From: Miscanthus floridulus
Lineage: Eukaryota > Streptophyta > Magnoliopsida > Poales > Poaceae
Length of the DNA stretch: 64,000 nucleotides
Assembly: GCF_019320115.1 (NCBI RefSeq)
Contig: NC_089591.1
Coordinates: 61,823,798-61,887,797, forward strand
Reading direction: 5' to 3'
A model generated the notes under the pieces. It saw only the letters and a list, made by a program, of their open reading frames with translations, was not told the DNA's origin and did not search any database. A program made the translations under genes and the position numbers. Position 1 is the first letter of the stretch. The number at the start of each line of letters is the position of its first letter. Shown piece by piece: positions 8,329 through 42,167 of the stretch.

Positions 8329-9654
8329 CTGCGTGTGGAACGTAACCAACGCACGTGACATGACTGAGTACGTATCTATGTCCCGTACTTGCAACACTGT
8401 GCGCCTATGGCTATCATAATGCGATATTGCTGGTTGTAGGCAGTACTAGCACTTACTACCACAGACGACAATCAGTACTCGAACAATTTACGACCGAGTA
8501 CGCCTGCGGAGTGGTAAAATGATGAACGTACAAACTCCTACTAATCTTGGAGTGGTTACTGCAAGGACGATATTTTGGACAATTTCAGCTGGCCGGAGCT
8601 GGAGTGCTGGACAGGACAGCTGGTAAATTGGCTAGTCGCCTGTACAGAAGGAACCAACCTCACCAGGCCACCATGCTAAATTGCTAATTTTATACTAATC
8701 TTGCTAGCTAGCATAAGATTAGCAGCCACGGTAATTTTACACCAGTTCAAGCTCTGCGCATTGAAACCACTCTCTGGCGCTCTCGCTCAGCATGTGGGCC
8801 GCTGAACGCCTGATTGCCTGAATCGATGTCTTATGCCACCGCATTCAGGGTGTGCTGCTGAAAGCCTGAAACCTTCAAAGTAGACAGCCGATTGGAAGGA
8901 CGGGACGGGTATTGCCCCCACAAGTCAGAAAGGCACATGGAGCCTCTGAAAGAACATATGAAAGGCTGTTCACTGTGTTGCCCCTGCCCTGATCGGTTTA
9001 GTTTGCTTCAGAATTATCAGAGTGTATCGATCTATCGGGCTCTTGGTGATGCTTGCAACCATTTTCCCATCGGAGTGTTCTTCTCAGTTTAGTTTGCTTC
9101 AGAATTATCAGAGGTCAATAGGTCATGTCATGTGGTTTTGAGTCGTTTGACCTGTATGCAAAACCATTTGCTAGAAACATCGTTAAATCTCTTGGTGCAG
9201 TTTCATCAAACGATCAGATTGCATCATTAATTCTGATAGCTTTAGGGAAAGAGAAGGAAAACATGAAGTGAGGACTTCCAATCACTATACTATATCCTCA
9301 CAGAGTGTGCCTGTGATAGGCTAATTTGTGTCCCATGGACAACTCGAGTGTTTGTGTTTTCTCAACTGCTGGACTGAGGTCCGTCCAGCGGGATGTTGCA
9401 TATGCAACTCAAAGTTATCTTATAGCATACTCATTGTGGGATTCAGACTTTTTTTTTCCTGATGGGTTTTGTGAAACAAATTTTCTCCTCAAGTAAAACA
9501 TTTTTTCTTTTTGTTAGCTGCACACTATGATTTGAAATTCTTTCTTTTTGTGAAATTTGTTCTTTCTGTACTAGCAACATTTTGTTCTTTCTTTTTGTAC
9601 TCAAGCAAAACATTGCTTTCCTAAACGACTAGCAATACTTAGTCAAGTGTTGTA

Positions 9655-10112
9655 TTCCCTTCGTCCACAAATGAAAGGACTTCTTGAATCTATAAGACAA
9701 TTTAAGTCAAATGAGAAAATACTCCCTGTGTCTTGGAATACAAGGTATCCAAGAAATTTCAGGGCATATTATGTGGTAAGATAAATGACATATATAACCC
9801 TCCCTAATTATCATATTAGGGTTGATGATAGACATTAATGGTAGGTATGCATTTGAATGTTGTCTTTTGTAGTGTTTGTTCACCTAGAGCTAGAATTTCC
9901 TTATAATTTGGTACAAATTTTGAACTCTTGATCTTTATATTTCAGGACGGAGGGAGTAGGCTATTGTCCCTCATTAAAGCTAAAGGAATAGCTTCTGATT
10001 GTTGCAATTAAAGAGCGACTACCTCCTGATTGGCACAATTAAAGGGTGTTCTGCTCCTGAATTATGCAATTAAAAAGTCAGTACTCATAACTCCTTATAT
10101 TTGTGGACAGAT
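9655..10112. mobile_element. Stowaway-like MITE with a second Stowaway nested in it (copy 1)
   Basis: The left end CCCTTCGTCCACAAATGAAA and the right end TATATTTGTGGACAG form a degenerate Stowaway inverted repeat. It is interrupted by a complete Stowaway (9722-9956). The right arm contains three imperfect repeats built on GCAATTAAA. The same structure is at about 15509-15966 in copy 2. Confidence 0.5.
9722..9956. mobile_element. Stowaway MITE, in duplication copy 1
   Basis: Begins CTCCCTGTGTCTTGGAATAC and ends GGACGGAGGGAG, flanked by TA on both sides (9720-9721 and 9957-9958). About 235 bp, the usual size for Stowaway. Confidence 0.75.
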
Positions 10113-12544
10113 TTCAGATGGTGTATTGGTGTGTCCTACTCAAGGTTGCTGATGGTCGGAGGGTTGGGGGAACAAATGGATCGAGTCAAAACATGGCTGG
10201 AAGATTTCAAAGGGCCCCGACAAAGGGTAATCTAATCAATCAACAACCATGGACTGAATCAAATAGTCCTGACCATGGACTCAATAAACAGTTCAATACA
10301 TGAGTAATCCGAGTCCCTTAGAAAGCCTTTTGATTCAATCAATAGCTCAAAACATGACTGAATCAATCAACACCTGACCGGAAGTATATATTTGATCTTG
10401 GAAGCCTTTTGATTCATGCGGCAAGAACTGAAAAAATAAATTACTGAATATAAAGACCAACCTGCAGAAGGTCACATTCCACAATGTTGGTGTCACACAT
10501 CAGTTGGTGGCAGCCGCCAAACCAGCCCTCTCCCTTGGGCTGGCTGCGGCCAAATGCATAATAAGAGTGTTTACCGTTTACCGGAGAATGCCAGGAACCA
10601 ATGTTTCTCAATATTCTTCACTGGGAAAAAGAGGAACTCACCTTTATTTGCGTCATAATGCTCAACAAATTAATGTTCAAACAGCTGCCATATACATCTC
10701 CACACTGATCTTGATCGACTGTTTGAACTCACCTTTAAATGCAGAAACCAAAATAGACACTAAGGATATGGAAAACATCATGACCCCTTAAAAATATGTT
10801 ATAGAAGCATAACTTAGGCCATGATCGCTTGTCTTATGAGTTGTACTATTTCAGTGAATAAACAGTGTTTTTCTCTCACAATAAATTAATGAATAGTACT
10901 TTCAACCATGACTTTTCAGCAAAGCGAACAGGGCCTTTGTATTTGTAATTGTAGTATAAAATGCACTAGAGTCCAATAACTTTTGAGGAAATATCATTAA
11001 CTTTTGGGTACCTAAACTTTTTTAATTGATTCATTATAGGTCCGTACCCTTTTGTTTATATTTGTATTTTACATAAACCTTCCTATATTTCTTCTTCGTC
11101 TTCTGATCGAGAGCACGGCGGCGTGCAGCGCGAGCAAACAGGACGGAGGCTGGAGCGGCAGGTACGTGGGCGATGGGCGCAGATCCCCGCTGCTAGCGGT
11201 ATGTGCGGGTGCGCAGGTCGTCTTCACGCCGTGGGTTTGGAGAGCTGAGCATACGGGTGTTGGCGGCTCGATTTCCATCCAGAATATCCGGCGGCGAAAC
11301 TGAGCCACATCAACGAAAGTATTTGTTCATGTGAGCTCCAATGAATATCAGCTGCACGCAGAGTTCAGTCTTGAGCCTGATGCCACACAGTTCTAACCTT
11401 AGGGCTTCGTTGTATTAGGCCGTACTAAATGTGAAGGTTTCGTGCTTTGTTAAAAGAGGTTTAGTGACTAAACTTTAGTCGTTTAGAGTTCATCAGCTGA
11501 TAAAAAATCGCAACGAGTTTCTGTTCTCACTTGTGCACAGATATCGATTTCATAACGTACAACCAGGAACAATTACCACACGTGATTCGGAAATATGGAA
11601 AGAAATAGTTGCTAAATGAATCATATTTTGTGATTGTTACAAATAAGCCTGTGCATAATCCCTGGTGTATCGAAAGGTAACCAGTGATACACATGGTTAT
11701 TGTGAAAATGGGATTAATCATGACCGGGGATGAAACGCCGGCGACCATGGACGGGAAAATGATACATTTTTGTGTGATGCGACGACGGGGGCTGCGACCG
11801 TGCGGCGTGACAGCAGAGGAGAAAAGGATACGAAATGCGGCATGGTGGAAGCAGAGGCAGGTTCGTGCTGGGTGCGCCACCGCCATCCGTCGTCCGCGCA
11901 ATGTAGCACGATGGAGGAGGCTCGGTGTTTCCTAGGGCTTAGTTCGCTGAAGAACAAGCCAAAAACGGTTCTGGCTGAAGAACAAGCCAAAAACGGTTCC
12001 GGCTGATTTATTGTGAGAGAAAAATATTATTCCGATTAAAAAAACAAGCTGAAAAATATAGATTATAAGACAAGCAAACAGGGCCATATAAATAATTTTC
12101 TCGTGAAACAAACCAAACCAGAGTCGTGGCCTAGATCCACACATCTCGGTTTGGGGCTTTGGGCTAGGGCTGGATTTGGTTTGGCACAGTTAGGGTCGGG
12201 CCCATACATTACCCATTACAAAATTAATTAAAACAATAACAGCTTGCTTTAGGATTCGTGCAAACTTCATGGAAAGGTCCATTGAACCAAGGAATGAGAC
12301 ATCTTTGTCCAAATCATTTGCTCCTTTGCACATACTTTTATGCAGAGGATAGATCGTCTCCGACAAATGTACTACTGCTAAAGATTGAAAGGCATTTTAC
12401 TGTTTGTCTCGCTAGGCAATCATAGATAGGGTGCAGGTTAGCACATTTTATTTTAAGTGCGGCATGCATGATACTTGCTCCTCACAAGCAACACATCTAC
12501 TGCATATTGTCTATATTGACTTATATTCCTGCATCCACTGTCAG

Positions 12545-12550
12545 TTTATT
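12545..12550 (-). terminator. Poly(A) signal AATAAA of ALDH3
   Basis: AATAAA on the minus strand, about 45 bp past the stop codon at 12596-12598. A plausible near-upstream element for 3' processing. Confidence 0.4.
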
Positions 12551-12595
12551 GGGTCCAATCCCTGTGCAATCCTTGCGTTGATGCTGGAGTAGAGT

Positions 12596-14182
12596 TCATC
12601 TCCTGAGCCCGAGGAAGGAGAGAACGAACGCGAAGTAGTTGAAGCGGTAGAGGTAGCGCATCAGGGTGACCTTGCTCTCGTCCCACGGAGGGTACCTGAG
12701 TGTCAGCTCCACGAGGTAGCCCCGCTTCATGACCGCCTTCTTGTGGCTGAACATCTCGAACGAGTACTTCCCATGGTACTGCCCGAACCCGCTCTGCCCG
12801 ACGCCGCCGAACGGGAGCCCGTCGATCGCGTACTGCGAAGAACACCAAGTCAACCACCAGAAGAACAACCATAGCTACGTGATAAATTTCTGCCTACGCT
12901 ACAGCTACGCCTAGTAGGAGGGAGTACCTGTACTACCGCGTCGTTAAAGGTGACGCTCCCGGACGACGTCTCGTCCACGATCCGTCGCCGCAGCGCGGCG
13001 TCCCGGGTGAACGCGTAGATGGCGAGCGGCTTCGGCATGGCCTTCACGAAGGCGATGCTGTCCTCGATCTTCTTGACCTGTGTGTACTCAGCGCCTCAGT
13101 TCACCAGCCGGTCACCGGAGCAAAATTAAAGGCGCCACCTGCCACAGGCTTCACGAATTTACCGTGATGATCGGGAGCAGGGGGCCGAATATCTCCTCGG
13201 TCATGATCGCGGAGTCCAGCGGTGGGTTTAGCAGTATCGTGGGCTCAATGTACCTGGGACAGTTTTGTCAGAACAATGACCCTGTCTTCACACAGGAAGC
13301 CAGTTGGCAAATCACTGAATGTTCAGAAACTCACAAGTTCTTGGCATCCATGGAGCCGCCATGCAGGACGGACGGTGCCACGGATCTGTCTTCCAGAAGG
13401 TTACTCAGCCTCTCGAAGTGGCGCTTGTTCACGATCCGTGCCATGTGATCCGTTTCCTGGAAGAACCTCTTCAGCGTCGACTTGAGCACCTTGATCTTCA
13501 GAGCGGGCGAAAACACAAGGCATGCACGACGAGAAACCCACGTCAGTTGCAAACATTCTCGGAGCATGATCAGCGACAAGCCGGGGGTTAATTAATACAT
13601 AGTTAATCAAACAGTAGGCGGCAGCAGTGCACCAGGATGGGCGCGAAGCGCTCCTCGACGAGCACGTAGTCGATGGCGATGCAGGCCTGTCCGGCGCAGG
13701 ACGACCACTTGCCCGCGATGATGCGGTTCACCGAGATCTGCAGGACCCGGGCACTGCCCATGGCGTCGAAGATGCACGGGCACTTGCCGCCCAGCTCCAG
13801 CGCGACGGGCGTCAGGTGCCTGGACGCCGCGGCCATCACGGCGCGCGCGATGCGCGGGCTCCCTGTACGTGGGGGCAATGGACAGTGTGCTGAAGTGACC
13901 GCCCTGAACTTGTGCTTCCGGAAACGCTTTGGTTGCCACCATCAGGACATCGGGTAAAAAACTTGGGTAGCTTACCGGTGAAGAGGACCTTGTCCCAGCG
14001 GTGTTCCATGAGCTGCTCCCCGACCTCCGGGCCGCCCTGGACGACCTTCACCGCGGAGGAGTCCATGTACCTCCCGATGTTGTCGGCCAGGAACCTGGAG
14101 GTGCACGGCGAGAGCTCCGACGGCTTCAGGGCCACGGCGTTCCCGGCCGCTATCGCCCCGATCAGCGGCTCCAGTGATAGGC
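12596..14182 (-). CDS. ALDH3: ALDH3 exons 4-9
   Basis: The C-terminal three quarters of the enzyme. It covers the NAD-binding and catalytic segments ([38 protein letters not shown]) and the C-terminal region through [12 protein letters not shown] to the stop at 12596-12598. Introns are short (about 95-140 bp) with normal GT-AG ends. Duplicated without coding changes at 8328-6742. Confidence 0.92.
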
Positions 14183-26144: not shown

Positions 26145-26543
26145 TGTGGGGGTATGGCCCCCGATATCCACAAGACAAGACATGGGCCGCACCATCAGAG
26201 GTGGCCCGGCCTACAAGGTCAAAACGTGCACGACGCTGCTCGGCGTGCACCGCAAGCTATTGTATAGTACCAAATAGGATACTTTACTCGTAACCATACC
26301 CCTCCAAAGTATATAAGGAGAGGCAGGGGTCCCCTGGTGGACAGATCTATCTACTACATCTCAATACAATACACCAAAGATACAGGACATTGGGTATTAC
26401 GTCGATCAGACAGCCCGAACCTGTCTAAATCGCTGTCTCTGCGCCTTGTGTCACCATCCGGTTTCTAATTACGCGCACCCCCACCGACAAATCTACCATC
26501 GCAGGATACCCCTCGGTGGACTGCCGATGATATTCTGTCGACA
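26145..26543 (+). repeat. 5' LTR of the non-autonomous element
   Basis: 399 bp, with a TATA-like AAGTATATAAGGAGAGGCAG about 150 bp in. Aligns end to end with 41769-42167. Confidence 0.85.
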
Positions 26544-26565
26544 GTTGGCGCGCCAGGTAGGAGTG

Positions 26566-29500
26566 TGTGACAGAACCGACCAATTATACGAAATTAAGTA
26601 AGAAAATCATCCACCAGAGCAGACGATTGAGCAAACTTAAGCCCGTATAACCCGGTAGTCCGTGAAATCACGAAGGATTTCAAACCAACTCGTGTCCCAG
26701 CCATGATCGTAGTAAGTTTAGCGGTCACCATCACATATTACGTAAAAGTTCACATAACAGATACATCAGAGTTTCAACATAGTTATTACAAACCAGTTCG
26801 AATAAAAAGTAGCGGAAGTCTTTTGTTCAAATCACACACACACACACAGAGTTGAAATATAGTGCCAGCGGATGATCATCTCCAATCAAAAGCATTAGAT
26901 GAGACGTAAGGAATGACCATGCCCATGGTCCTAAGCATCACCCATCGCAGGATACAGGCAGTTGATACAGTAGCCATAGTACATCTGCCCATCTGCAACA
27001 AGTGGGAATAAAACCCTGAGTACGAGAATGTACTCAGCCAGACTTACCCGACATAACCGAAAATAATGACACCAAGGATTATGAAGGGCTTTATAGTAGG
27101 GTAGCTGACTCATTTGCAAAAAGAAGCATTTTTAGCAATTCAAGAACCTGTCTAAAAGCATTATTGCCAAGTTAATTATTATTAACCTGTCAACTAGGTT
27201 TGCACCTATGCTAGAGTAAACAGGTGATTAAGCAGATAATGATAACCAATGATCATTAAACAACTTCCATACTGTCATACTCACTATAACTGTCCAAGTG
27301 TTCCATAGCATTTACTACGATGAAGTAACTCAAGTCAAGTGCTCACTATCCAGGAGCGATGGCGATTCGAATCGATTCCTAACCAGCTGGTGATTTATTC
27401 CTTACACAAACCTCACTCACCCGCTAAAGTGAGATATTGATCACCGAGTCAACTTTCCAGGAATCTCGAGTTTGCCAGGAACCACATGTACCCGGGGGCC
27501 GACCGACTGCACTTTGGTCTTATCATCCCGCCCCCGTGTCCTACCACACCTGCTCCGGTACAGTGCGTTGCGGGCAATCTACTCGGCCCGAAAAATCTCC
27601 CAGCTTCGCGGTCGGAAGGTACTTTATCCGGCCAGCTAAATGTAAGGCATGCGTTCAACATGACTCGAGGCCCAACAACGGTCGGTCCTTAATCGACACA
27701 AACGGAAACACTACAGTCCAAAACTCTGCAAGTCTCCGTCCGGTCTCAACTTTATTTAACACTTAGTTATACTATGACTTCATAGTCATCCAAGCAGATC
27801 CAGGTAACCACCTATAGCTCGCAGGTGACAGGAAATCACCCGACTTCTACCGGTCTAAGCCAGCTAAGCATTGACTCGACTGCGGATACCAGGGTAACAA
27901 GGATATAGTATAACAAAGGTAAACAAGGTATAATGCAGCAACGGTTGCAAACAACTCCTGAACGTAATGCATCAATTAAAGTAAAGCATTTAATTAATTA
28001 ATTGCAAACCGGGAGAAAAATGCTCCGGGGCTTGCCTCTCTCGAAGGAGCTCGGACGGTGATCGGGGCACTCCGGAAGTTCCTCAACGTCCTCCTCGTTG
28101 ACTTCTGGCACTTCCTGCTGCTGCACCTCGAGCTGCTCCTCGGGCTCCTCGGGGATGACGACCGGGTTCTCGGTTTGCGATCCTGTATGATGCAATGCGC
28201 GTAAGTGATTATGCAACGGTGCATCGAAGGAGATGCATGCAAGGGATATGTTGAAATGCAAGGTAGTCAACATCATCTAAGAACTATACTACAAGCACAT
28301 GTCATCTACTGCATTCTCTTCTACTACTAATATGTTAAGTTAACCTATCTTATGAAATGCTTCAAAGATACACCAAAGCTTTACTACTTTCTTAATCACA
28401 CTTAAAGCAACACTTGCTTAAACCCTAATTAATAATAGGTTTGAATAGCAACCTATATTTCTGATGCTCATAAAAATCTGAGAAAATTGCAGTAGCATAC
28501 TACTACCCTCAAAAGACTACCATAAAAATTTCATGGCATTTGGATAAGTAAACTATCCTACACAAAAATGACAAGTTATAGCATAAAAATGATCATGAAA
28601 TTACTTTGTACTATGAAAAGTGTCAACCAATAGATTTAGTATTTTTCCTAAGTTCTAAACAGTCAATAATAACTGTACAAAAATTACCACATGCATGTTT
28701 TATACAAATTTTGCTCTCTAGCAAAAATAACAAAATTCAGCCAGTAAAGGTACTTGAACTACACCTCAAAATTTTTCCACAGCACATGCATGAAATATAT
28801 TTTTCCTAGGAAGTACATTACATAATAAGATTAACAACCTTGAAATCATATTTTTCTGAAGCCTATAGATTTTTCTACATATTTTTCAAATTATCAGCAA
28901 TATCCATGATTAAATAAAATCCTACAGAAAAATATCTCAAAAATGACATGCAATAAATTTTCCAAGTAGATCTGTTGATAAGGAACCTAGCAAAATTTGT
29001 TTCAACAAATTTGGAGCAAGTTTGAGTATCCAAACATTTTGCAAACCATTTCTGTTTTCAAATAATAAAGAATAAATGGAAAACAATTCTTTAAAACTCT
29101 ACTGGGCCGGCCCGCTGGAAACGAACTGGCCCACTACTGTGCGCACACACACATGGCCCAGAACGGCGCAGCCCAGCCTGGCTCTCCTCGGCTCGGCGAC
29201 GGGTGGCGCCACGCGGCGGTCGGCTTCTGCCGGCATCAGGGCGCAGGCGCGCGAGTGCGGGCGAACGGGGGCGCGGCGTGGGCCTGGGCTGGCGAGGCGG
29301 CTGCTGGGCCAAGGCGGAGCGCGGAAGCAGGCCAGCGCGGTGCGGGGCTGGGCTGGCTTCGGCTGGCGGGCCAGAAGCGAGGCGCAAGGCCCACGAAGGT
29401 AAAACCAGATTTTTCAAATTAATTTGAATCCCTTTTTCATTCAAACGAATTTTTGGACTAAATTAAAGCAGTTTCAAACTTTGGACCAAAAATGAAAGTT

Positions 29501-29920
29501 GCTCAAAATTTTATCCTCTACAACTTTGATTACATGACCAAAGTCCAATTTCTTATAGATTTTGAATTACAAAATCAAAGTCAAATTTTAACTCAAAACC
29601 CTAATTTTGGGGAATTATTTTTAAAGCAAAATTTGGCAATAATTCAAATACAAACCTTGCTCCAAAAATTATGCTAAACAATTCTAGCTGATTTACAATC
29701 ATAACCAAACAGTTTCTACTAAACTAGCAAGCAAAATCAGGGCAAAACAACTATAATAAGTGTATGTACCATTTACGTTTCACAAACATGTTTCGTATGT
29801 TTCGAAGTAATGTGTCAGTTGTTATATGCAAGATTATGCATGTATGATTTGGATGCTTGATGATGCATGATATGCGTGATTTGCAGTGCCTAAATGCAGG
29901 CATAACACCGGGGTGTTACA
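26566..29920 (-). repeat. 3' LTR of the chromovirus
   Basis: Plus-strand ends TGTGACAG and GTGTTACA. Contains a (CA)n run near 26837, an acidic minus-strand ORF at 28276-27998 present in both LTRs (92 codons, Glu/Pro-rich, no known domain), and a GC-rich patch at about 29100-29400. Confidence 0.92.
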
Positions 29921-29933
29921 GCCCTCCCCCCTT
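29921..29933 (-). other. Polypurine tract of the chromovirus
   Basis: Minus strand AAGGGGGGAGGGC directly before the TGTAACACC that starts the 3' LTR. Confidence 0.8.
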
Positions 29934-32900
29934 ATAAAAATCTCGTCCCGAGATTTGGGTTACGAACCATTTGTTATAAAATTCTTCATAAGCTTTTTGT
30001 AGATACTCTCCTGTTTCCCAAGTTGCATCTCCCTCATCATGATGATCCCACTGTATCTTGTAAGTTTTCACCACACTATTCCGAGTAGCACGTTCCTTAG
30101 TGTCTAACACTCGGACTGGTTGTTCCCGATACACCAAATCTGATTTGAGTTGAATACCTCGAGGTTCTATTCTTTCCTCCGGAACACGCAAACATTTCTT
30201 GAGATGTGATACATGGAAAACTGGGAAAACTGTACTCATTGTCTCAGGTAACTCTAACTTGTAGGCTACCGGACCTCTTTGTTCCAAGATCTTGTATGGT
30301 CCTACGAATCTTGCGGCAAGCTTTCTTCGGATTTCAAACCTTTTCTTCTTCATTGGTGTAACTTTCAGATAAACATAGTCTCCAACTTCAAACACAAGGG
30401 GTCTCCTTCTTTTGTCTACATAGCTTTTCTGACGTGATTGGGCAGCTTTCATATTCTGCTGAATAATATGAACTTTCTTCTCGGCTTCTTCTACAAAGTC
30501 AATGCCATAATACCTTCTATCACCAGGCTCGATCCAATTCAATGGTGTTCTACATTTTCTGCCATATAAAGCTTCGAATGGGGCCATCTTGATGCTTTCT
30601 TGATAGCTATTATTATAAGAAAACTCAGCTAACGGTAACCATGACTCCCATGATCCCTTGGAAGACAATACACAGGCTCTCAACATATCTTCCAAAACAG
30701 CATTTACTCGTTCAGTCTGACCATCTGTCTGAGGATGATAAGCGGTACTGCGAATTAAACTAGTTCCTAAGCCTTTGTGTAAATGTTCCCAAAAATGAGC
30801 CGTGAATTGTGAGCCTCTATCAGATATTATGGTCTTGGGTATACCGTGCAACCTCACAATTTCTGCGATATACTTCTCAGCATATTGAGGTGGTCGATAA
30901 TCTGTTTTGACAGGCAAGAAATGAGCGGTCTTGGTAAGACGATCCACAATTACCCAAATTGAATCATGTCCTTTTTGAGTAGTGGGCAAACCCGTGATAA
31001 AATCCATACTGATATCGTCCCACTTCCAACTAGGGACTGATAAAGGTTGCAACATACCGGCAGGCTTCATGTGAATGGCTTTCACTCGACAACATGTGTC
31101 ACATCTGACAACATATGCTGTAATTTCTTTCTTCATTTTGGTCCACCAATAGCGAGATCTTAGTTCTTGATACATCTTACTACTTCCGGGATGGATAGAT
31201 AGCTTAGACAGGTGAGCTTCATCCATGAGTTTATTCCTAAGCTCTCGATCCTTGGGAACCACAAGACGGTTGTCAAACCACAACACGCCCTGTTCATCCA
31301 CTTTAAAGTGTTGAGACGGCTTTTCTTTTATTTTCTCTTTGATGTGGAATATTCCCTTGTCAGTTTTCTGACCTTCTATTATCTTACTCTCCAAAGAGCA
31401 ACTAATCTGAATACTATTTAACACAGCAGGATGCATTAGATCGAATCCATCTTCAAGTAATGGCTGCACAGTCAAGTAATGTGACTTCCTGCTCAAAGCA
31501 TCTGCCACTACATTGGCTTTGCCAGGATGATATTGCACATTCAAGTTGTAATCTTTGATCAATTCCAACCATCTACGTTGTCTCATGTTTAGCTCTGGTT
31601 GGGTAAAGATATACTTAAGACTCTTGTGATCCGTGAAAATATTGCACACATTACCAAGTAGGTAATGTCTCCAAATTTTTAGGGCGTGCACAACTGCAGC
31701 AAGTTCAAGATCATGTGTTGGATAGTTGATCTCGTGCTTTCTCAATTGACGTGATGCATAAGCTATGACTCTCCTTTCTTGCATAAGAACACAACCCAAT
31801 CCAGTCTTTGATGCATCGCAAAACACATCAAATGGTTTCTCTATATCCGGTTGTGCTAGAACAGGAGCAGTGGTCAACAGTTTCCGCAAAGTGTGGAAAG
31901 CTGCTTCACACTCCTCTGTCCACACAAACTTGTGATCCTTCTGTAGGAGACTCGTCATCGGTTTGGCGATCTTTGAGAAATCTGGTATAAAGCGACGGTA
32001 ATAACCCGCTAGTCCTAAGAAACTTCTAATCTCAGGAACTGTGGTCGGTGCTTTCCAATTCATAACTTCTTGCACCTTACTTGGATCGACTGAAACTCCA
32101 TTCTCTGACAGAATGTGACCCAGGAAAGGGACTTCCTTCAACCAGAATTCGCATTTGCTAAACTTAGCATATAATTGATGATCTCTCAGTCTGGTCAAGA
32201 CAATTCTCAGATGCTCTTCGTGATCTTTCTCATTCTCGGAGTACACCAGAATGTCATCGATGAATACTACCACAAACTTATCCAATTCCGGCATGAAAAC
32301 TGTATTCATCAAGAACATAAAATATGCGGGAGCATTTGTCAAGCCAAAAGACATGACAAGATACTCATACAACCCGTATCTGGTGGAAAATACAGTTTTT
32401 GGTATATCCTGTGGCCTAATCTTGATCTGATGATAACCGGATCTCAAATCTATTTTTGAGAACACCTTGGCCTTGGATAATTGGTCAAACAGAACATCAA
32501 TATGTGGCAAGGGATATTTATTCTTGACGGTCACAGCATTGAGTGGCCTATAATCTACGCACATTCTCAACGTGCCCTCTTTCTTTTTCTTCACAAACAA
32601 AGCTGGACATCCCCATTCAGACTTGGTTGGCCGAATAAACCCCTTTTTCGACAAATCTTCTAATTGCTTCTTTAGCTCAGCTAACTCGTCTGGAGGCATC
32701 CGATAGGGCCTCCTTGAAATCGGAGCTGTTCCAGGGACTAACTCAATTCCAAACTCAATCTCTCTATCTAGCGGAAGACCAGGTAGCTCATCCGGGAATA
32801 CGTCCGGGAATTCACACACTACCGGAATCTGATGAATAGGAGTGACTGCCGTAGCGCATGTAACACTTATAAGGTCTGTTCTTCGAGGCAATGGTACTTG

Positions 32901-34454
32901 GAAAGTACCCTCACCCAGGGGATCCTTAAGGGTAAGTACTCGACCTCCAGTATCTATGACTGCTCCCCAATCCTTCATCCAATTCATCCCTATAATGACA
33001 TCCAAGACTAACCCAGGCATAACTATCAAGTTCACTCGGAACTTTCTGCTACCTAATTCAAGGGTTGCCCCTCGAACCATCCGGTTGGTCAACACATCAG
33101 CCCCTGCTGAACTTATACGGTAACCATAACCCAATTCTGTGCATAGTTGTTCATATTTCTGTGCAAATGCTTGACTCATAAAAGAATGCGATGATCCGGA
33201 ATCAAATAGAACAACTGCAGGGTTTTCATTGACAGTAAACTTACCAGCAGTGATGGGCTCTCCCTCTGGAATTTCATCCACTGTTGTACTGTGCACTCTA
33301 GCATTATAAGTCTGCTGCTTCTTCTTGGGCGGGTATGGACAAAACCTCGAGAAATGACCGGGTTGATCGCAGTTATAGCAGGGTCCTCTCACTGTCCCGG
33401 CAGATCCCACAGCTCCCTTAGAACTGCCTTGTACCGCAGTTGCGGCTGCTTTGTTGGGCTGTACTACCATCTTGTACGGCTTTTGAGGTCCACGGAAATT
33501 CTGGCTTCTTGGCTGAGGTGGCCTGAATCTAGCGCCAGGTGCCGATGGGCGATAAGGAGGACGACCTCCCATAGGTGCTCTAGCTTGAGACGGCCCACCT
33601 TCGAAGGCTCTCTTGCGTGTCTTGGCTGCGGTGCTGGCGTTGTTATTCTTCTCCTGCTTCAGACAGTCACTGATGAAATCGTTGAATCTGACGCGGTTGT
33701 TGGTACCAACATGCTTCATCATTTTTGGATTGAGACCCCTCTTAAAGCTGGCTATTCTCTTAGCATCTGTGTCAACCATGTCGGGAGCATAGCGACATAA
33801 GTTGTTGAAAGCATGCAGGTATTGCGTCACGGTCTTGGTACCCTGGTTCAATGCCAGAAACTCTCCCAACTTCATCTCTGTCAGCCCGGGTGGAATATAG
33901 ACTCCGTGGAAGGCCTCAGCAAACTCTCTCCAAGAAATCTGAGCATTTGGAGGGAAGGTGGTGCGATGGTGCTTCCACCACATTCCCGCCGGTCCTTGCA
34001 ATTGAAGTGCAGCATACTCCGTTTTTAGCACCTCAGTCATTCTCAACACACGGAATTTATCTTCCATCGTGTTGATCCATTCCTCAGCATCAAGTGGCTC
34101 TGTTGCTTCCTTGAAGACTGGTGGCCTGGTGTCCATGAAATCTTTGAAGCTGCTATATTGGTTCACTCCCATGCCACCACCTTGATTGTTACCACGTTGA
34201 ACGTTGTTGGCGATGGTTCTGAGAAGATCCTCCATGTTCTTCTGAGATTGTTCTGTGTTGCGCTGACTCCCGAGTAGCTGTGCGAGGAACATTTCGGGGG
34301 TAAATGGGGGCGGAGGTGGCAAATGCGGTTCATGGGGAGGTTCATTGTTGTTGCTGTGGTTTCCACCACCACCACCACCACCACCGGTCCCTGCACCGTT
34401 GGCACCGGGCTCAGCGGCCTCATACGTGGTTCGGCGAGTGTTTGTCATCTGCAT
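29934..34454 (-). CDS. Chromovirus gag-pol polyprotein, intact, 1512 aa
   Basis: The frame runs from ATG 34454 to a stop close to the polypurine tract (about 29916). Approximate order by residue: Gly/Asn-rich N-terminus; retrotransposon gag ([16 protein letters not shown], about 125); CCHC knuckle [14 protein letters not shown] (about 360); aspartic protease [11 protein letters not shown] (about 416); reverse transcriptase with [12 protein letters not shown] (about 730); RNase H ([14 protein letters not shown], about 875); integrase HHCC zinc site (about 1080-1120) and DDE core ([27 protein letters not shown], about 1150-1245); then a C-terminal chromodomain-like part ([17 protein letters not shown], about 1465). 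The chromodomain defines the chromoviruses and is thought to steer integration to marked chromatin. No stop or frameshift: this copy could still be competent. Confidence 0.93.
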
Positions 34455-34815
34455 ATTTCAGCAACAAGTATGATTGAGTGAAGCTGTAATAATTGCGAGT
34501 GAGGGAAAAATTATGCCATACTGAATTTACTGGAGAGAATAAATTCATACAATAAAAACAGAGGCACAACAATCGCAATTCCAATTAAAACAACAGCACT
34601 TAATCGAGTTACTTAAACGGCAAACATCGCGTCCATACAATCACATTGCCAGTATACATACACTGGACTTTTTATGCGTTCAGATATCGCATCCGAAAAT
34701 CAAGTTCCAAACACATGCCAATTCTCATACGTTCGAAGCAACATACGATAGATTACATGCCAACAAAAGAAAGGTCATCGCGACAAGACCTAGATACTAG
34801 CGCAAAGCTACTAGC

Positions 34816-35031
34816 CTACTCCTCGGGGCCATCGTCGGGATCGGAGACGTCACCATCGCCTCCAGGTGAAACTACAGGCTCATCCTGGTTGTCGTCGTCG
34901 ATGTCCATGCTAGCGGCGTTCGGTGGAGCATATGGGCCAACCCCATTGTAGAGCGCGTGAAACTCCTCGTGCAAGTAGCCGTTGTATTCCTCTAGCTCAT
35001 CGACTCTCTGCAACAGAAGGTTTCTTGCGTT
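34816..35031 (-). pseudogene. C-terminal continuation of the accessory ORF after an in-frame TAG
   Basis: The same frame stays open past the TAG, reading NARNLLLQRVDELEEYNGYL, and ends in an acidic tail (DIDDDNQDEP, then DPDDGPEE) before a stop at 34816. It continues the coiled coil, so the ancestral protein was probably about 330 residues and this copy carries one nonsense mutation. The stop codon lies about 360 nt before the gag ATG. Confidence 0.7.
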
Positions 35032-36579
35032 CTAGGCTTCATTCCTTTCCTGAACCAACTGTCCAATCATGCGATCTGCATTGTTGTTGGCTTGAGTCAA
35101 CGTATGCACTCGCTGCATAGCTCTATCACCTCTTTCAACCGCCTGATCTCGCTGTAGATTCATATCAGCCAACTGCTCCTGCAAGCTAGCTATAGCTTGA
35201 GCCTGTCTCTTCTTCTGCTTCTTCCCTTTGAGCTTATCCTCACTACGCAAGCCAGTCAAAGTCCAGTAGGTACTCTCAAGACCCTCATACGCTCTGATGG
35301 CGGCGAACATAGCACTCATTGCCTGGTTGTCGCTAGCCTGTCCCTCAGCTGGACCTCTGACCAATGCGCTTCCTTCAGGCTGAACCCAAATGGCATCGCG
35401 GGGATCATCCCTAGGAAAAGTACCAGCTAAAGCTGCTGCAAGCTCACTGGGAAATCTGCTCATAATGTCCCTGATGACACGGAAGGCTGCTCCCTCTGCA
35501 CCCTCAGCTGGAGTGCGACCCTCAAACTCCAAATGCCAACCATCCCAATCTGGAGCATCACCGAGAGCAGGAACCGTGATCTCCACCACTGCAAGTCCAT
35601 CATCTGCTAACTGGCTCTCATTCCAAGAGTACACCGGCTCCTGACCCTCTGGGTACCCCACATCATGGAGCACTCTCCAAAGCAAAGTCGGCATGCCAAA
35701 CTCGCTCAAGAAGGTGTCCGTGGTGCGGTGCTCCCTCAGGGCCAACGGACGTCGAGGTGCTCTTCCTCCGGTGGACTTACGGGCGGTCTGCTTCGTGCGG
35801 GCCATCTGTAGCAAAAGTTCTCTTATTACCTCGGGGAAATATATTTTAGGTGATACAACTTTTATCAAAATGAGATAATCAATTTATAAGGGGAGGTATG
35901 CATGAGATGAATGAGATGCACAAGTAACATGATGTATGTACGTATCGTACGTTCTCACAAACTTATGAAATAATAATTTCTAACGACGAATTCGGTGGCA
36001 TCACAACGATCTCTCAATTACGTAGCTAATACGTTCTACACGATAGCGTTGTTATGTACCTGCAGAAGATTCATTTCAGCCCAATTCCCAATGAATGCAT
36101 AAAAACAGTAAACTTTTACCTACATGCTCTACACGAATCCCCAGATACGTGTACAATGGTAGTAACTACCCGAATCATCATCCTAATGATGGCATCGCCT
36201 CCACAGACGGAAGACCCTCACATGAGATACCTTGGTAAAACATGCGTAGAACATGTAATTACTCCAGTATCATATAAGCATTCACCCTAGATCGGCGGTG
36301 TATCCGATCATGCTCTCACAACTCACACTTACCGAGGCGTAGAGGCAATTGATCCATTCATTACCACTCAAACAAGTGGCACTCATACAATAGCACGCCG
36401 TATGAGCGACGAAAGAGAAATATGATGCAAGAACCCCAGTCAGTACTTAATTAAGCCACCTAAAGTCCTTAACTGGGCATAAAGGATATGATCACTGGCA
36501 CACTTTATAGTTTTAAAATCACGTTTTCCAGTGCCTTTTTGTTTTAAATACACTTGTGAACAGTAACACGCTAAACCAT
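34819..36579 (-). other. 5' leader region of the chromovirus
   Basis: From the PBS to gag. Besides the accessory ORF, the stretch 35869-36579 has no recognisable gene and should hold the packaging and leader sequences. Confidence 0.5.
35032..35805 (-). CDS. Accessory ORF with histone H3-tail mimic, upstream of gag
   Basis: Starts at ATG 35805 and runs 257 codons to a TAG at 35032-35034. The frame is open 21 codons further upstream, but this Met gives the exact histone start. The N-terminus MARTKQTARKSTGG is identical to histone H3 for 13 residues after Met, and APR and LA also match further on. K4 and K9 are kept; H3 K14, K18 and K23 are Arg; the K27 site is lost. A non-histone middle follows (WHLEFEGRTPAEG, then AFRVIRDIMSRFP), then a basic patch (KLKGKKQKKRQAQ) and a heptad-rich coiled coil (IASLQEQLADMNLQRDQAVE). 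There is no histone fold, so it is not an H3 gene. It lies in sense between PBS and gag-pol, in another frame. The role is unknown; chromatin mimicry is an inference. Confidence 0.85.
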   Translation of the reverse strand: MARTKQTARKSTGGRAPRRPLALREHRTTDTFLSEFGMPTLLWRVLHDVGYPEGQEPVYSWNESQLADDGLAVVEITVPALGDAPDWDGWHLEFEGRTPAEGAEGAAFRVIRDIMSRFPSELAAALAGTFPRDDPRDAIWVQPEGSALVRGPAEGQASDNQAMSAMFAAIRAYEGLESTYWTLTGLRSEDKLKGKKQKKRQAQAIASLQEQLADMNLQRDQAVERGDRAMQRVHTLTQANNNADRMIGQLVQERNEA

Positions 36580-36591
36580 GCTCTGATACCA
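36580..36591 (-). other. Primer-binding site of the chromovirus
   Basis: Minus strand TGGTATCAGAGC, a perfect complement to the 3' end of initiator-Met tRNA, separated from the LTR by GC. Confidence 0.85.
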
Positions 36592-36593
36592 GC

Positions 36594-39500
36594 TGTGACA
36601 GAACCGACCAATTATACGAAATTAAGTAAGAAAATCATCCACCAGAGCAGACGATTGAGCAAACTTAAGCCCGTATAACCCGGTAGTCCGTGAAATCACG
36701 AAGGATTTCAAACCAACTCGTGTCCCAGCCATGATCGTAGTAAGTTTAGCGGTCACCATCACATATTACGTAAAAGTTCACATAACAGATACATCAGAGT
36801 TTCAACATAGTTATTACAAACCAGTTCGAATAAAAAGTAGCGGAAGTCTTTTGTTCAAATCACACACACACACACAGAGTTGAAATATAGTGCCAGCAGA
36901 TGATCATCTCCAATCAAAAGCATTAGATGAGACATAAGGAATGACCATGCCCATGGTCCTAAGCATCACCCATCGCAGGATACAGGCAGTTGATACAGTA
37001 GCCATAGTACATCTGCCCATCTGCAACAAGTGGGAATAAAACCCTGAGTACGAGAATGTACTCAGCCAGACTTACCCGACATAACCGAAAATAATGACAC
37101 CAAGGATTATGAAGGGCTTTATAGTAGGGTAGCTGACTCATTTGCAAAAAGAAGCATTTTTAGCAATTCAAGAACCTGTCTAAAAGCATTATTGCCAAGT
37201 TAATTATTATTAACCTGTCAACTAGGTTTGCACCTATGCTAGAGTAAACAGGTGATTAAGTAGATAATGATAACCAATAATCATTAAACAACTTCCATAC
37301 TGTCATATTCACTATAACTGTCCAAGTGTTCCATAGCATTTACTACGATGAAGTAACTCAAGTCAAGTGCTCACTATCCAGGAGCGATGGCGATTCGAAT
37401 CGATTCCTAACCAGCTGGTGATTTATTCCTTACACAAACCTCACTCACCCGCTAAAGTGAGATATTGATCACCGAGTCAACTTTCCAGGAATCTCGAGTT
37501 TGCCAGGAACCACATGTACCCGGGGGCCGACCGACTGCACTTTGGTCTTATCATCCCGCCCCCGTGTCCTACCACACCTGCTCCGGTACAGTGCGTTGCG
37601 GGTAATCTACTCGGCCCGAAAAATCTCCCAGCTTCGCGGTCGGAAGGTACTTTATCCGGCCAGCTAAATGTAAGGCATGCGTTCAACATGACTCGAGGCC
37701 CAACAACGGTCGGTCCTTAATCGACACAGACGGAAACACTACAGTCCAAAACTCTGCAAGTCTCCGTCCGGTCTCAACTTCATTTAACACTTAGTTATAC
37801 TATGACTTCATAGTCATCCAAGCAGATCCAGGTAACCACCTATAGCTCGCAGGTGACAGGAAATCACCCGACTTCTACCGGTCTAAGCCAGCTAAGCATT
37901 GACTCGACTGCGGATACCAGGGTAACAAGGATATAGTATAACAAAGGTAAACAAGGTATAATGCAGCAACGGTTGCAAACAACTCCTGAACGCAATGCAT
38001 CAATTAAAGTAAAGCATTTAATTAATTAATTGCAAACCGGGAGAAAAATGCTCCGGGGCTTGCCTCTCTCGAAGGAGCTCGGACGGTGATCGGGGCACTC
38101 CGGAAGTTCCTCAACGTCCTCCTCGTTGACTTCTGGCACTTCCTGCTGCTGCACCTCGAGCTGCTCCTCGGGCTCCTCGGGGATGACGACCGGGTTCTCG
38201 GTTTGCGATCCTGTATGATGCAATGCGCGTAAGTGATTATGCAACGGTGCATCGAAGGAGATGCATGCAAGGGATATGTTGAAATGCAAGGTAGTCAACA
38301 TCATCTAAGAACTATACTACAAGCACATGTCATCTACTGCATTCTCTTCTACTACTAATATGTTAAGTTAACCTATCTTATGAAATGCTTCAAAGATACA
38401 CCAAAGCTTTACTACTTTCTTAATCACACTTAAAGCAACACTTGCTTAAACCCTAATTAATAATAGGTTTGAATAGCAACCTATATTTCTGATGCTCATA
38501 AAAATCTGAGAAAATTGCAGTAGCATACTACTACCCTCAAAAGACTACCATAAAAATTTCATGGCATTTGGATAAGTAAACTATCCTACACAAAAATGAC
38601 AAGTTATAGCATAAAAATGATCATGAAATTACTTTGTACTATGAAAAGTGTCAACCAATAGATTTAGTATTTTTCCTAAGTTCTAAACAGTCAATAATAA
38701 CTGTACAAAAATTACCACATGCATGTTTTATACAAATTTTGCTCTCTAGCAAAAATAACAAAATTCAGCCAGTAAAGGTACTTGAACTACACCTCAAAAT
38801 TTTTCCACAGCACATGCATGAAATATATTTTTCCTAGGAAGTACATTACATAATAAGATTAACAACCTTGAAATCATATTTTTCTGAAGCCTATAGATTT
38901 TTCTACATATTTTTCAAGTTATCAGCAATATCCATGATTAAATAAAATCCTACAGAAAAATATCTCAAAAATGACATGCAATAAATTTCCCAAGTAGATC
39001 TGTTGATAAGGAACCTAGCAAAATTTGTTTCAACAAATTTGGAGCAAGTTTGAGTATCCAAACATTTTGCAAACCATTTCTGTTTTCAAATAATAAAGAA
39101 TAAATGGAAAACAATTCTTTAAAACTCTACTGGGCCGGCCCGCTGGAAATGAACTGGCCCACTACTGTGCGCACACACACATGGCCCAGAACGGCGCAGC
39201 CCAGCCTGGCTCTCCTCGGCTCGGCGACGGGTGGCGCCACGCGGCGGTCGGCTTCTGCCGGCGTCAGGGCGCAGGCGCGCGAGTGCGGGCGAACGGGGGC
39301 GCGGCGTGGGCCTGGGCTGGCGAGGCGGCTGCTGGGCCAAGGCGGAGCGCGGAAGCAGGCCAGCGCGGTGCGGGGCTGGGCTGGCTTCGGCTGGCGGGCC
39401 AGAAGCGAGGCGCAAGGCCCACGAAGGTAAAACCAGATTTTTCAAATTAATTTGAATCCCTTTTTCATTCAAACGAATTTTTGGACTAAATTAAAGCAGT

Positions 39501-39948
39501 TTCAAACTTTGGACCAAAAATGAAAGTTGCTCAAAATTTTATCCTCTACAACTTTGATTACATGACCAAAGTCCAATTTCTTATAGATTTTGAATTACAA
39601 AATCAAAGTCAAATTTTAACTCAAAACCCTAATTTTGGGGAATTATTTTTAAAGCAAAATTTGGCAATAATTCAAATACAAACCTTGCTCCAAAAATTGT
39701 GCTAAACAATTCTAGCTGATTTACAATCATAACCAAACAGTTTCTACTAAACTAGCAAGCAAAATCAGGGCAAAACAACTATAATAAGTGTATGTACCAT
39801 TTACGTTTCACAAACATGTTTCGTATGTTTCGAAGTAATGTGTCAGTTGTTATATGCAAGATTATGCATGTATGATTTGGATGCTTGATGATGCATGATA
39901 TGCGTGATTTGCAGTGCCTAAATGCAGGCATAACACCGAGGTGTTACA
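36594..39948 (-). repeat. 5' LTR of the chromovirus
   Basis: Same length as the other copy, offset exactly 10028 bp with no indels. It should carry the promoter for the element's minus-strand RNA. Confidence 0.92.
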
Positions 39949-39953
39949 GAGTG

Positions 39954-41768
39954 TGCGCTTGATCCATGACGAGCCAGATGGACCTCAAATCAACAGCGCG
40001 TTCTCGTCATCAATCTTATGGAGATCCATGCCGGTCCACGACGATGATTCATCGTTGGCTATACTAGCCCCCGCGACAGTAGATCCTATCTTGGAACCAC
40101 CTCCGAGGTTGTCTTCACCAACAACTCACCGCCCGCCAGGAGCTCGCCGTCAACGCTGACCAGATAAAGCCACACGCCGCCGACCAAATGCTCCGTCCAA
40201 AGCTAAGTCACGCTTTAATATTTTTTTAAATATTCTTCAATCTCCGTATATCACCATAATGTTTCTCCGAGCTGTTTTTTCCATATTTGCTCTCCAAACG
40301 ATTTTCCGAACCCTCGAACAGTCACGTTGATGCTCAGAGACGGCCATGTCACGGCTCCTTCCTACACGTGCTACGGGCTCCGCGCTCTACGTTATGGGTG
40401 ATCGGCAGCGGCTCCTTGGTCACACCTGTTCCTCCTACACGTGCACGAGCTCCGCGCTCCACGTTATGGTTAACGGGCTAGCTAGGGCTGGAGACTCAGC
40501 TACACACTAACTGTTTCTGGCGGTTTATATTAAACATAAATATATTTTCACGCTAACTGATCGTCGAACTGCATACGCCATTTCATCACCATTGTTGATT
40601 TTTCTTTGGAGTTTATTTATTTGTGCGTCATGTACTACACGTTCTATATATTTGTATTATAGGATCATCGTCCAGGTGATCGAATCACCTAGTGCTTAGA
40701 CTTCTCCACCGATCAACTGGTCAGACCGCTTGGTTCATGGACTCCATTGCCGACCAGTTGATCAGACTGTTTACCGGTCGCTTCTACTCAATGCTCACTT
40801 CGTCATCGACCAGTTGACCAGACTGTTCGCCGCTCGTGCTTCATCGCCAGCTACGTCGGTTACTCCTCAGCGCTCGGATTCTTCGTGCTCGAGAACTAAG
40901 TGGGCACACTTCACCGCATGAACGTCGCCAAGCCGAAGACTCCTCGGTGCTCGAACATCGCCGCCTACGCCGGGGACTCCTCGGTGCTCGGTCATCGCCA
41001 GCGACGCCGAGGACTCCTCGCTCCTCGGTGCTCGGTCATCGCCAGTGACGTCGGGGACTCCTCGCTACTCAGTGCTCGGACATTGCCACCTACACCGGGA
41101 TCCCTCGCTCCTCGGTGCTCGATCATCACCAGCAACGCCGGGGACTCCTCGCTCCTCGGTGCTCGGACATCGCCGCCTATGCCAGGGACTCCTCGCTCCA
41201 TGGTGCTTGGACATCACCGCCTACGCCGGGGACTCATCGCTCCTCGGTGCTCGGTCATCGCCAGCGACGCTGGAGAATCCTTGCTCCTTGGTGCTCGGTC
41301 ATCGCCAGCGACGCCGGGGACTCCTCGCTCCTCGGTGCTCGGTCATCGCCAGCGACGCTGGGGACTCCTCACACCTCGATGCTCGGATATCGCTAGCGAC
41401 ACTAGGGACTCCTCGCTGCTCCCTTGGTGGTCGGATCTTGCTACGTCTCGTTAGTGTGCTATCAAGCTGCTCCATGCTGTTCGGATCAAGGTGCTGATCT
41501 TGGGCAGCACGTCTGGGGTCTTGATACGCGCATGTCAAACGACATCAGCAAGCTTTTAGACTTCTTTTTCTTTGACCCTGCTATAAGATTCATTCTTCAT
41601 CTTTCAGCAGGCTCGAGGACTAAGTGGGCACACTTCACCTTGCGGTGAAAGTGCTTTTTCTCATCTCGTGGCTATGTTCGGGGACTGGCTGCCTACTCGG
41701 CTAGTCTTCTACTTTCTAACCCTGGCACCACATGACTATGTCACCTACTGTCAGGCTCGGGGACTAGC
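39954..41768 (+). other. Interior of the non-autonomous element
   Basis: Contains no retroviral domain. From 40932 to about 41424 it is a minisatellite (listed separately). The last bases (GGCTCGGGGACTAGC) may act as a polypurine tract. Open frames across the minisatellite are repeat artefacts. Confidence 0.6.
40932..41424 (+). repeat. 44-bp minisatellite, about 12 units
   Basis: Unit of the form GCCGGGGACTCCTCGCTCCT followed by CGGTGCTCGGTCATCGCCAG and CGAC. Unit starts run 40932, 40969, 41006, 41050, 41094, 41137, 41181, 41225, 41269, 41313, 41357 and 41401. The first two units are 7 bp shorter. Two unit types alternate, ending in GCCAGCGAC or GCCGCCTAC. Confidence 0.88.
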
Positions 41769-42167
41769 TGTGGAGGTATGACCCCTAGTATCCACAAGAT
41801 AAGACATGAGCCGCACCATCAGAGGTGGCCCGGCCCATAAGGTCAAGGCATGCATGGCGCTGCTCGGCAGGCACCACAAGCTATTGTATAGTACCAAATA
41901 GGATACTTTACTTCTAACCCTACCCCTCTAAAGTATATAAGGAGAGGCAGGAGTCCCCTAGTGGACAGATCTATCTACTATATCTCAATATAATACACCA
42001 AAGACACAGGACATGGGGTATTATGTCGATCAGACGGCTCGAACCTGTCTAAATTGATGTCTTTGTGTCTTGTGTCAGCATTCGATTCCTGATTACGCGC
42101 ACCCCCACCGACAAATCTACCATCACGGAATACTTCTCGGTGGATTGCCGATGATATTCTATCCACA
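41769..42167 (+). repeat. 3' LTR of the non-autonomous element
   Basis: Same length as the 5' copy. Dozens of substitutions make it much older than the chromovirus inserted inside the element. Confidence 0.85.

Follow-up and report, generated by a model that had tools for sequence, protein, structure and literature searches.

The grass retrotransposons Retrosat2, RIRE3 and RIRE8, together with grass homologues, carry an extra open reading frame, ORF0, upstream of gag-pol, and have long terminal repeats (LTRs) of about 3 kb or more (PMC3485330). According to the main text of that paper, ORF0 was found only in grasses, evolves fast, has no established function and was modelled as hydrolase-, acyltransferase- or transporter-like (PMC3485330). 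The words histone, nucleosome, methylation and chromodomain are absent from its main text, and we met none of the three features described below, i.e., a histone H3 tail, a predicted fold like that of double-stranded RNA-binding domains (dsRBDs) and an apparent origin from an H3.3 exon. Here we analyse 64,000 nucleotides of Miscanthus floridulus DNA (contig NC_089591.1, positions 61,823,798 to 61,887,797; this whole stretch is the window), in which a young LTR retrotransposon on the minus strand encodes an ORF0 that opens with the tail of histone H3.

PAF15 and Shugoshin 1 are cellular proteins with H3-like N-termini, with a shorter match, and VANDAL elements are DNA transposons. In influenza, NS1 likewise bears a short H3-tail-like stretch, ARSK, on an unrelated protein (PMC10208167), whereas here 13 identical N-terminal residues, apparently exon-derived, stand in a plant retrotransposon. 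The words retrotransposon, transposable and plant are absent from that review of viral histone mimics in the text available. VANC of Arabidopsis VANDAL elements is likewise element-encoded and in its case counters host silencing, but it acts on specific motifs of its own elements and the abstract mentions no histone mimicry (PMC5735166). The term ORF0 is absent from the accessible text of a review of additional reading frames (PMC7264820) and of a 2025 review of host factors (PMC12786077). In agreement with an earlier note on this DNA, which knew of no published description, we found no report of an H3 start on ORF0 in open-licence papers, where absence is not proof. What appears to be new here is the H3 start on ORF0, its recurrence across diverged families, the codon constraint on it and its match to an exon boundary.

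The H3 tail of ORF0 and its distribution

ORF0 sits between the primer-binding region and gag (34454), and its coordinates are given with those of the other features in Table 1. Its translation opens MARTKQTARKSTGG, the longer start as translated being MARTKQTARKSTGGRAPRRPLALREHRTT. Residues 1-13 are identical to histone H3, residues 15-17 and 20-21 also match and positions 14, 18 and 23 are Arg, exactly as the earlier note had read them; counted from the initiator Met, 20 of the first 29 residues equal H3. A phmmer search against PDB sequences returned 136 distinct matches (E up to 10), the best 60 of which are all H3 or H3 chimeras that align within ORF0 residues 1-31 (best E 2.1e-5). The Pfam search of ORF0 gave no histone fold and no PF00125 match. 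ORF0 is not an H3 by fold, the H3 match being confined to residues 1-31 among the matches listed; it has the make-up of a histone-tail mimic, i.e., an H3-tail-like stretch on an unrelated protein. This copy has a frame that ends early: the proteins of relatives extend as far as the position that corresponds to 34816, and most of the 148 genomic copies listed lie within longer open frames.

A protein search gave 69 relatives of ORF0 and a profile search 1642, with 120 of the latter listed. An H3-like start, defined as at least 6 of 14 matches, which favours tail-bearing proteins, was present in 34 of the 159 retrieved proteins (the window protein included), while most of the other 125 begin past the tail, often at an internal Met of MPTLLW, and are uninformative on it; four proteins (P0096, P0100, P0130 and P0158) do show their N-terminus, and it lacks the tail. 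By ungapped count among these 34, K9 is kept in all, A1, A7 and S10 in 33 each, R2 in 31, T3 in 30 and R8 in 29. K4 is found in 28 (otherwise five Arg and one Trp) and Q5 in 19 (otherwise 14 Leu and one Lys), so the claim that K4 and K9 are both kept holds in full for K9 and less so for K4. Position 14 is Arg in 27 proteins and Lys in one, and Arg or His stands in place of most of the lysines at positions 14, 18 and 23, which retains the charge; the loss of these acetylation sites, noticed in the window copy, extends to its relatives.

The tail start is present in all 30 near-identical genomic copies fetched (clade A; the best 30 of 148, from a query that included the tail). Judged from sequence, the H3-like start is not due to chance, because it recurs both in diverged homologues and in these 30 copies. 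A body-only query, P0074, starts after the tail and was chosen so that copies were not picked by it; it scored 128 places, of which 20 between rank 1 and about rank 105 were fetched, omitting one place that was already included. The tail stands in frame upstream in 19 of the 20, agreeing at 10 to 14 of 14 positions; the exception is L076, which lacks it in frame, and in L064 its first codon is not ATG. Most of this sample is decayed, and K4 and K9 are retained in 19/19, which partly reflects their non-CpG codons. First-look candidate counts for ORF0 queries (8,447 to 13,563) are loose and overlapping, and hint at thousands of copies. No ORF0 homologues were found in viral and prokaryotic contig collections. 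Clade D was considered as a family of this genome and rejected: a search of this genome with P0038 gave 123 scored matches of only 45-51% identity, and the clade therefore probably comes from another plant.

Selection on the tail and its origin

The 30 clade A copies, whose tail protein is identical up to residue 25, are too similar for a codon comparison to inform on selection. The clade A copy L010 was therefore set against clade B, i.e., the 25 best loci from a search with the tail-bearing P0040. Across tail codons 2-14 there are 5.6 synonymous differences over 11.0 sites and 0.08 nonsynonymous differences over 28.0, giving proportions of synonymous (pS) and nonsynonymous (pN) differences of 0.51 and 0.003. 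The corresponding values are 0.67 and 0.195 for codons 15-22, and 0.87 and 0.155 for a well-conserved body stretch of 21 codons, and four single pairs with the window copy give Fisher p values of 0.0001 to 0.0008. Between these two families the tail is under purifying selection at the protein level. Across eight representatives, mean identity is 0.74 in the tail (13 positions) and 0.56 in the body. The claim of the earlier note that ORF0 is an accessory protein of a retrotransposon and begins like H3 is supported, and this N-terminus is conserved at the protein level across element families.

Other results point the opposite way. Pairs that include P0038 or P0147 agree at only 7-10 of 13 tail positions, in several cases hardly better than in the body, and the tails of some relatives have drifted. 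Clade E, an abundant and mostly decayed sister family found with P0111, has the ORF0 body behind a short tail-less start, MAAPAG..., and none of the 20 copies fetched from its 150 places (L089-L108) has the tail in the three frames read, the best reaching 4 of 14 matches. Homologues without the H3 start, which the earlier note held would speak against its claim, do exist in clade E, although several families carry the tail and two show purifying selection. As the tree is unrooted, the clade E start may represent either the condition that preceded capture or what a deletion left of the tail (MA...AP). In P0063 a tail stands before a body that groups with clade E in the tree, a hint that tails are moved by recombination. 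Many tail-bearing copies of clade B have a leader like that of clade E, which suggests leader exchange.

In five host H3 genes (L084-L088), which we take to be H3.3-type from their coding introns, an exon ends after K23 (AAG followed by GT) and the next starts AARKS, in 5/5. Eight fetched genes, presumably H3.1-type and lacking coding introns, match the H3 family in one piece. The likeness of ORF0 to H3 stops at residue 23, i.e., at the H3.3-type exon boundary, which suggests that a host H3.3-type gene supplied the tail as its first coding exon. GGA at G12 and TCC at S10 are common to one copy each of clades A, B and C and to 5/5 H3.3 genes, as against 0/8 and 2/8 H3.1-type genes, respectively. 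Alignment of tail codons with host H3 genes, which the earlier note had proposed, showed that two clade B copies share 9-13 of 19-20 codons with H3.3 and 8-10 with H3.1, whereas the clade A copy (6-8 of 19 with H3.3, 7-9 with H3.1) does not decide the origin. CAG directly precedes the ATG in 30/30 clade A copies, 23/25 of clade B and 15/20 of the P0074 sample, three more of which have TAG. The idea that a splice acceptor was captured along with the exon is weakened: CAG also precedes the ATG of L100, a clade E copy that lacks the tail, so CAG alone is not evidence of capture.

A protein of the grass Aristida has the same tail and a similar layout with a body not recognisably related by sequence; homology of that body to ORF0 was considered and is unsupported (hhalign score 18.3, exceeded by 2/60 shuffles; hmmsearch, one target at E 0.0084 and 2.1 bits). 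Several further proteins, apparently unrelated, also open with a run of H3 residues, most with GGRAPR, a type of match favoured by the R14 of the query (P0164, P0174, P0198, P0200, P0165, P0162, P0189, P0172 and P0166/P0167). P0164, P0174 and P0198 are alike by eye, P0174 is fungal, P0162 comes from Armillaria, and P0200 and P0165 carry Pfam F-box domains. H3-tail fusions seem to have arisen repeatedly.

Predicted fold and possible function

Behind the tail, structure models of the window ORF0 and of one relative both have the alpha-beta-beta-beta-alpha fold of dsRBD type. The dsRBDs of DRB7.2, DCL4, TARBP2 (third) and Staufen (fifth) share this predicted fold at 12-18% identity, but the ORF0 proteins lack the RNA-binding motif of KKxAK type where helix 2 begins (0/101 sequences); for this reason we describe the body as predicted dsRBD-like and not as an RNA-binding dsRBD. 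Coiled-coil-type Pfam matches in ORF0 relatives are weak and below cut-offs. The hydrolase modelled previously (PMC3485330) was considered for the body, and no such fold stands out in the structure-match lists shown. Of the 'novel domain' proposed in the earlier note, the non-histone character stands, and a dsRBD-like fold is the better description.

Plants silence such elements by dimethylation of H3 lysine 9 (H3K9me2) and DNA methylation, with SUVH, CMT3 and similar proteins involved, and a decoy is therefore the likeliest gain for the element. That K9 is the least variable position, that Arg can replace K4 and that most acetylation sites are lost points to K9 writers or readers, rather than K4 or acetyl-lysine readers, as the partners of the tail. 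Our tentative proposal is that a Retrosat2/RIRE8-like chromovirus (a likeness of position and layout) encodes ORF0 as a chimeric accessory protein, in which a tail captured from an H3.3 exon and kept by selection acts as an H3K9-type mimic that eases silencing. An ancestral element would have taken in the first coding exon (residues 1-23) of a host H3.3-type gene, and the resulting protein would combine the N-terminus of H3 with a dsRBD-like domain for protein interaction, a coiled coil (probably dimerising) and an acidic tail. Its A7-R8-K9-S10 motif, with K9, would be taken up by host H3K9 methyltransferases and/or K9 readers of the silencing loop, the loss of acetylatable lysines leaving K9 (and K4) as modifiable sites. 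ORF0 might compete for or misdirect these writers and readers, thereby easing silencing of the element, and its dsRBD-like domain, which is devoid of the RNA-binding motif, may interact with Dicer/DRB-type partners or with itself. Retrotransposons that fill large plant genomes have to cope with H3K9me2- and small-RNA-based silencing, and a selected H3 tail on an element protein offers one concrete, testable way of doing so; it also provides a testable function for ORF0, and histone mimicry, known from viruses, would then include transposable elements.

The chief rival, somewhat less probable, is targeting, in which H3-tail readers, chaperones or remodellers would carry ORF0, and with it the capsid or integration complex, to chosen chromatin, or the tail would bind the element's own chromodomain. 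Purifying selection on the tail fits this equally, the gag-pol frame does end in a weak chromodomain match, and group II chromodomains reach heterochromatin by a mechanism not yet known (PMC12786077). However, by-eye reading finds only the Trp of ...KIQWDHH left of three cage aromatics in this chromodomain, which fits the description of type II (PMC6317226); classical K9me binding of the ORF0 tail to it is therefore unlikely, which weakens the earlier note's suggestion of such binding, and there is no sign of ORF0 joining the integration complex.

We consider it doubtful that the proposed mimic goes further and is a two-pronged anti-silencing protein, in which the captured H3.3 tail, methylated at K9, would absorb or mislead the H3K9/DNA-methylation loop while the Dicer/DRB-like domain disturbs small-RNA silencing; if true, no earlier histone mimic from a transposable element would be on record, as far as the searched literature shows. 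The tail is basic, and the retained charge at positions 14, 18 and 23 (mostly Arg or His) would suit a mere nuclear-import signal or basic nucleic-acid-binding arm, yet this is improbable given that the uncharged A1, T3, T6, A7, S10, G12 and G13 are retained in 30 to 33 of the 34 proteins and that K9 is exchanged for Arg in 0/34, as against 5/34 for K4. Still less credible is a passive passenger, or a constraint on RNA (a splice site or exonic signal) instead of protein: the CAG kept before the ATG across families resembles a 3' splice site and clade E lives without the tail, but synonymous sites of the tail are freely changed (5-6 differences in about 11 sites) and its amino acids are not. 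Known histone mimics elsewhere are short motifs. The ARSK of NS1 is an example (PMC10208167), but convergence without descent from a histone gene is barely conceivable for an N-terminus that equals H3 at 20 of 29 residues and whose likeness ends on an exon boundary.

The element and its surroundings

The retrotransposon occupies 26566-39948 and is flanked on both sides by the duplication GAGTG. Its LTRs (3355 bp each) differ by 15 transitions and no transversions over 3356 aligned positions, i.e., a Kimura two-parameter distance (K2P) of 0.0045. With an LTR substitution rate of 1.3e-8, this corresponds to an age of about 0.17 million years. The LTR length and the position of ORF0 upstream of gag-pol ORF1 agree with Retrosat2, RIRE3 and RIRE8. 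On the element strand the LTR termini, TGTAACACC...CTGTCACA, are similar and not identical to the TGTCACACCC...GGGCGTGACA given for Retrosat2 and RIRE8 (PMC3485330). The domain search of the gag-pol frame covered three pieces, with 32016-33254 left out. On the Tekay affiliation implied by the earlier note, what the sequence offers is the weak chromodomain match at the C-terminal end (PF00385, Table 1). We take the primer-binding site to be of the initiator-Met tRNA type.

Table 1. Positions in the window of the retrotransposon's features
Feature	Position	Strand	Basis
5' LTR	36594..39948	-	LTR pair comparison
3' LTR	26566..29920	-	LTR pair comparison
Target-site duplication GAGTG	26561..26565	.	
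Target-site duplication GAGTG	39949..39953	.	
Primer-binding-site region TGGTATCAGAGC	36580..36593	-	
CAG directly before ATG, acceptor-like, kept in most copies examined, also in a tail-less one	35806..35808	-	
ORF0 as read in this copy, 257 amino acids plus stop	35032..35805	-	translation
H3-tail segment, Met + residues 1-23, equivalent to first coding exon of five host H3.3-type genes	35734..35805	-	
Predicted dsRBD-like domain, residues 31-123, helix-strand-strand-strand-helix	35437..35715	-	model
Long helix, probable coiled coil, residues 160-257, basic patch near start	35035..35328	-	model
Stretch past this copy's stop matching relatives' C-terminal part (rest of helix + acidic tail)	34816..35031	-	
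gag-pol frame, 1512 amino acids	29916..34454	-	gag, CCHC, RNase H, integrase and chromodomain matches
C-terminal chromodomain, weak Pfam match	29973..30116	-	PF00385, E 0.0019, 18.5 bits, below cut-off 25.1

About 1 kb past the 5' LTR lies a 44-bp tandem repeat of about 10 copies (40977-41421). The element is also bracketed by a 399-bp direct repeat, 88% identical (26145-26543 and 41769-42167), the two parts of which possibly belong to an older element invaded by the present retrotransposon.
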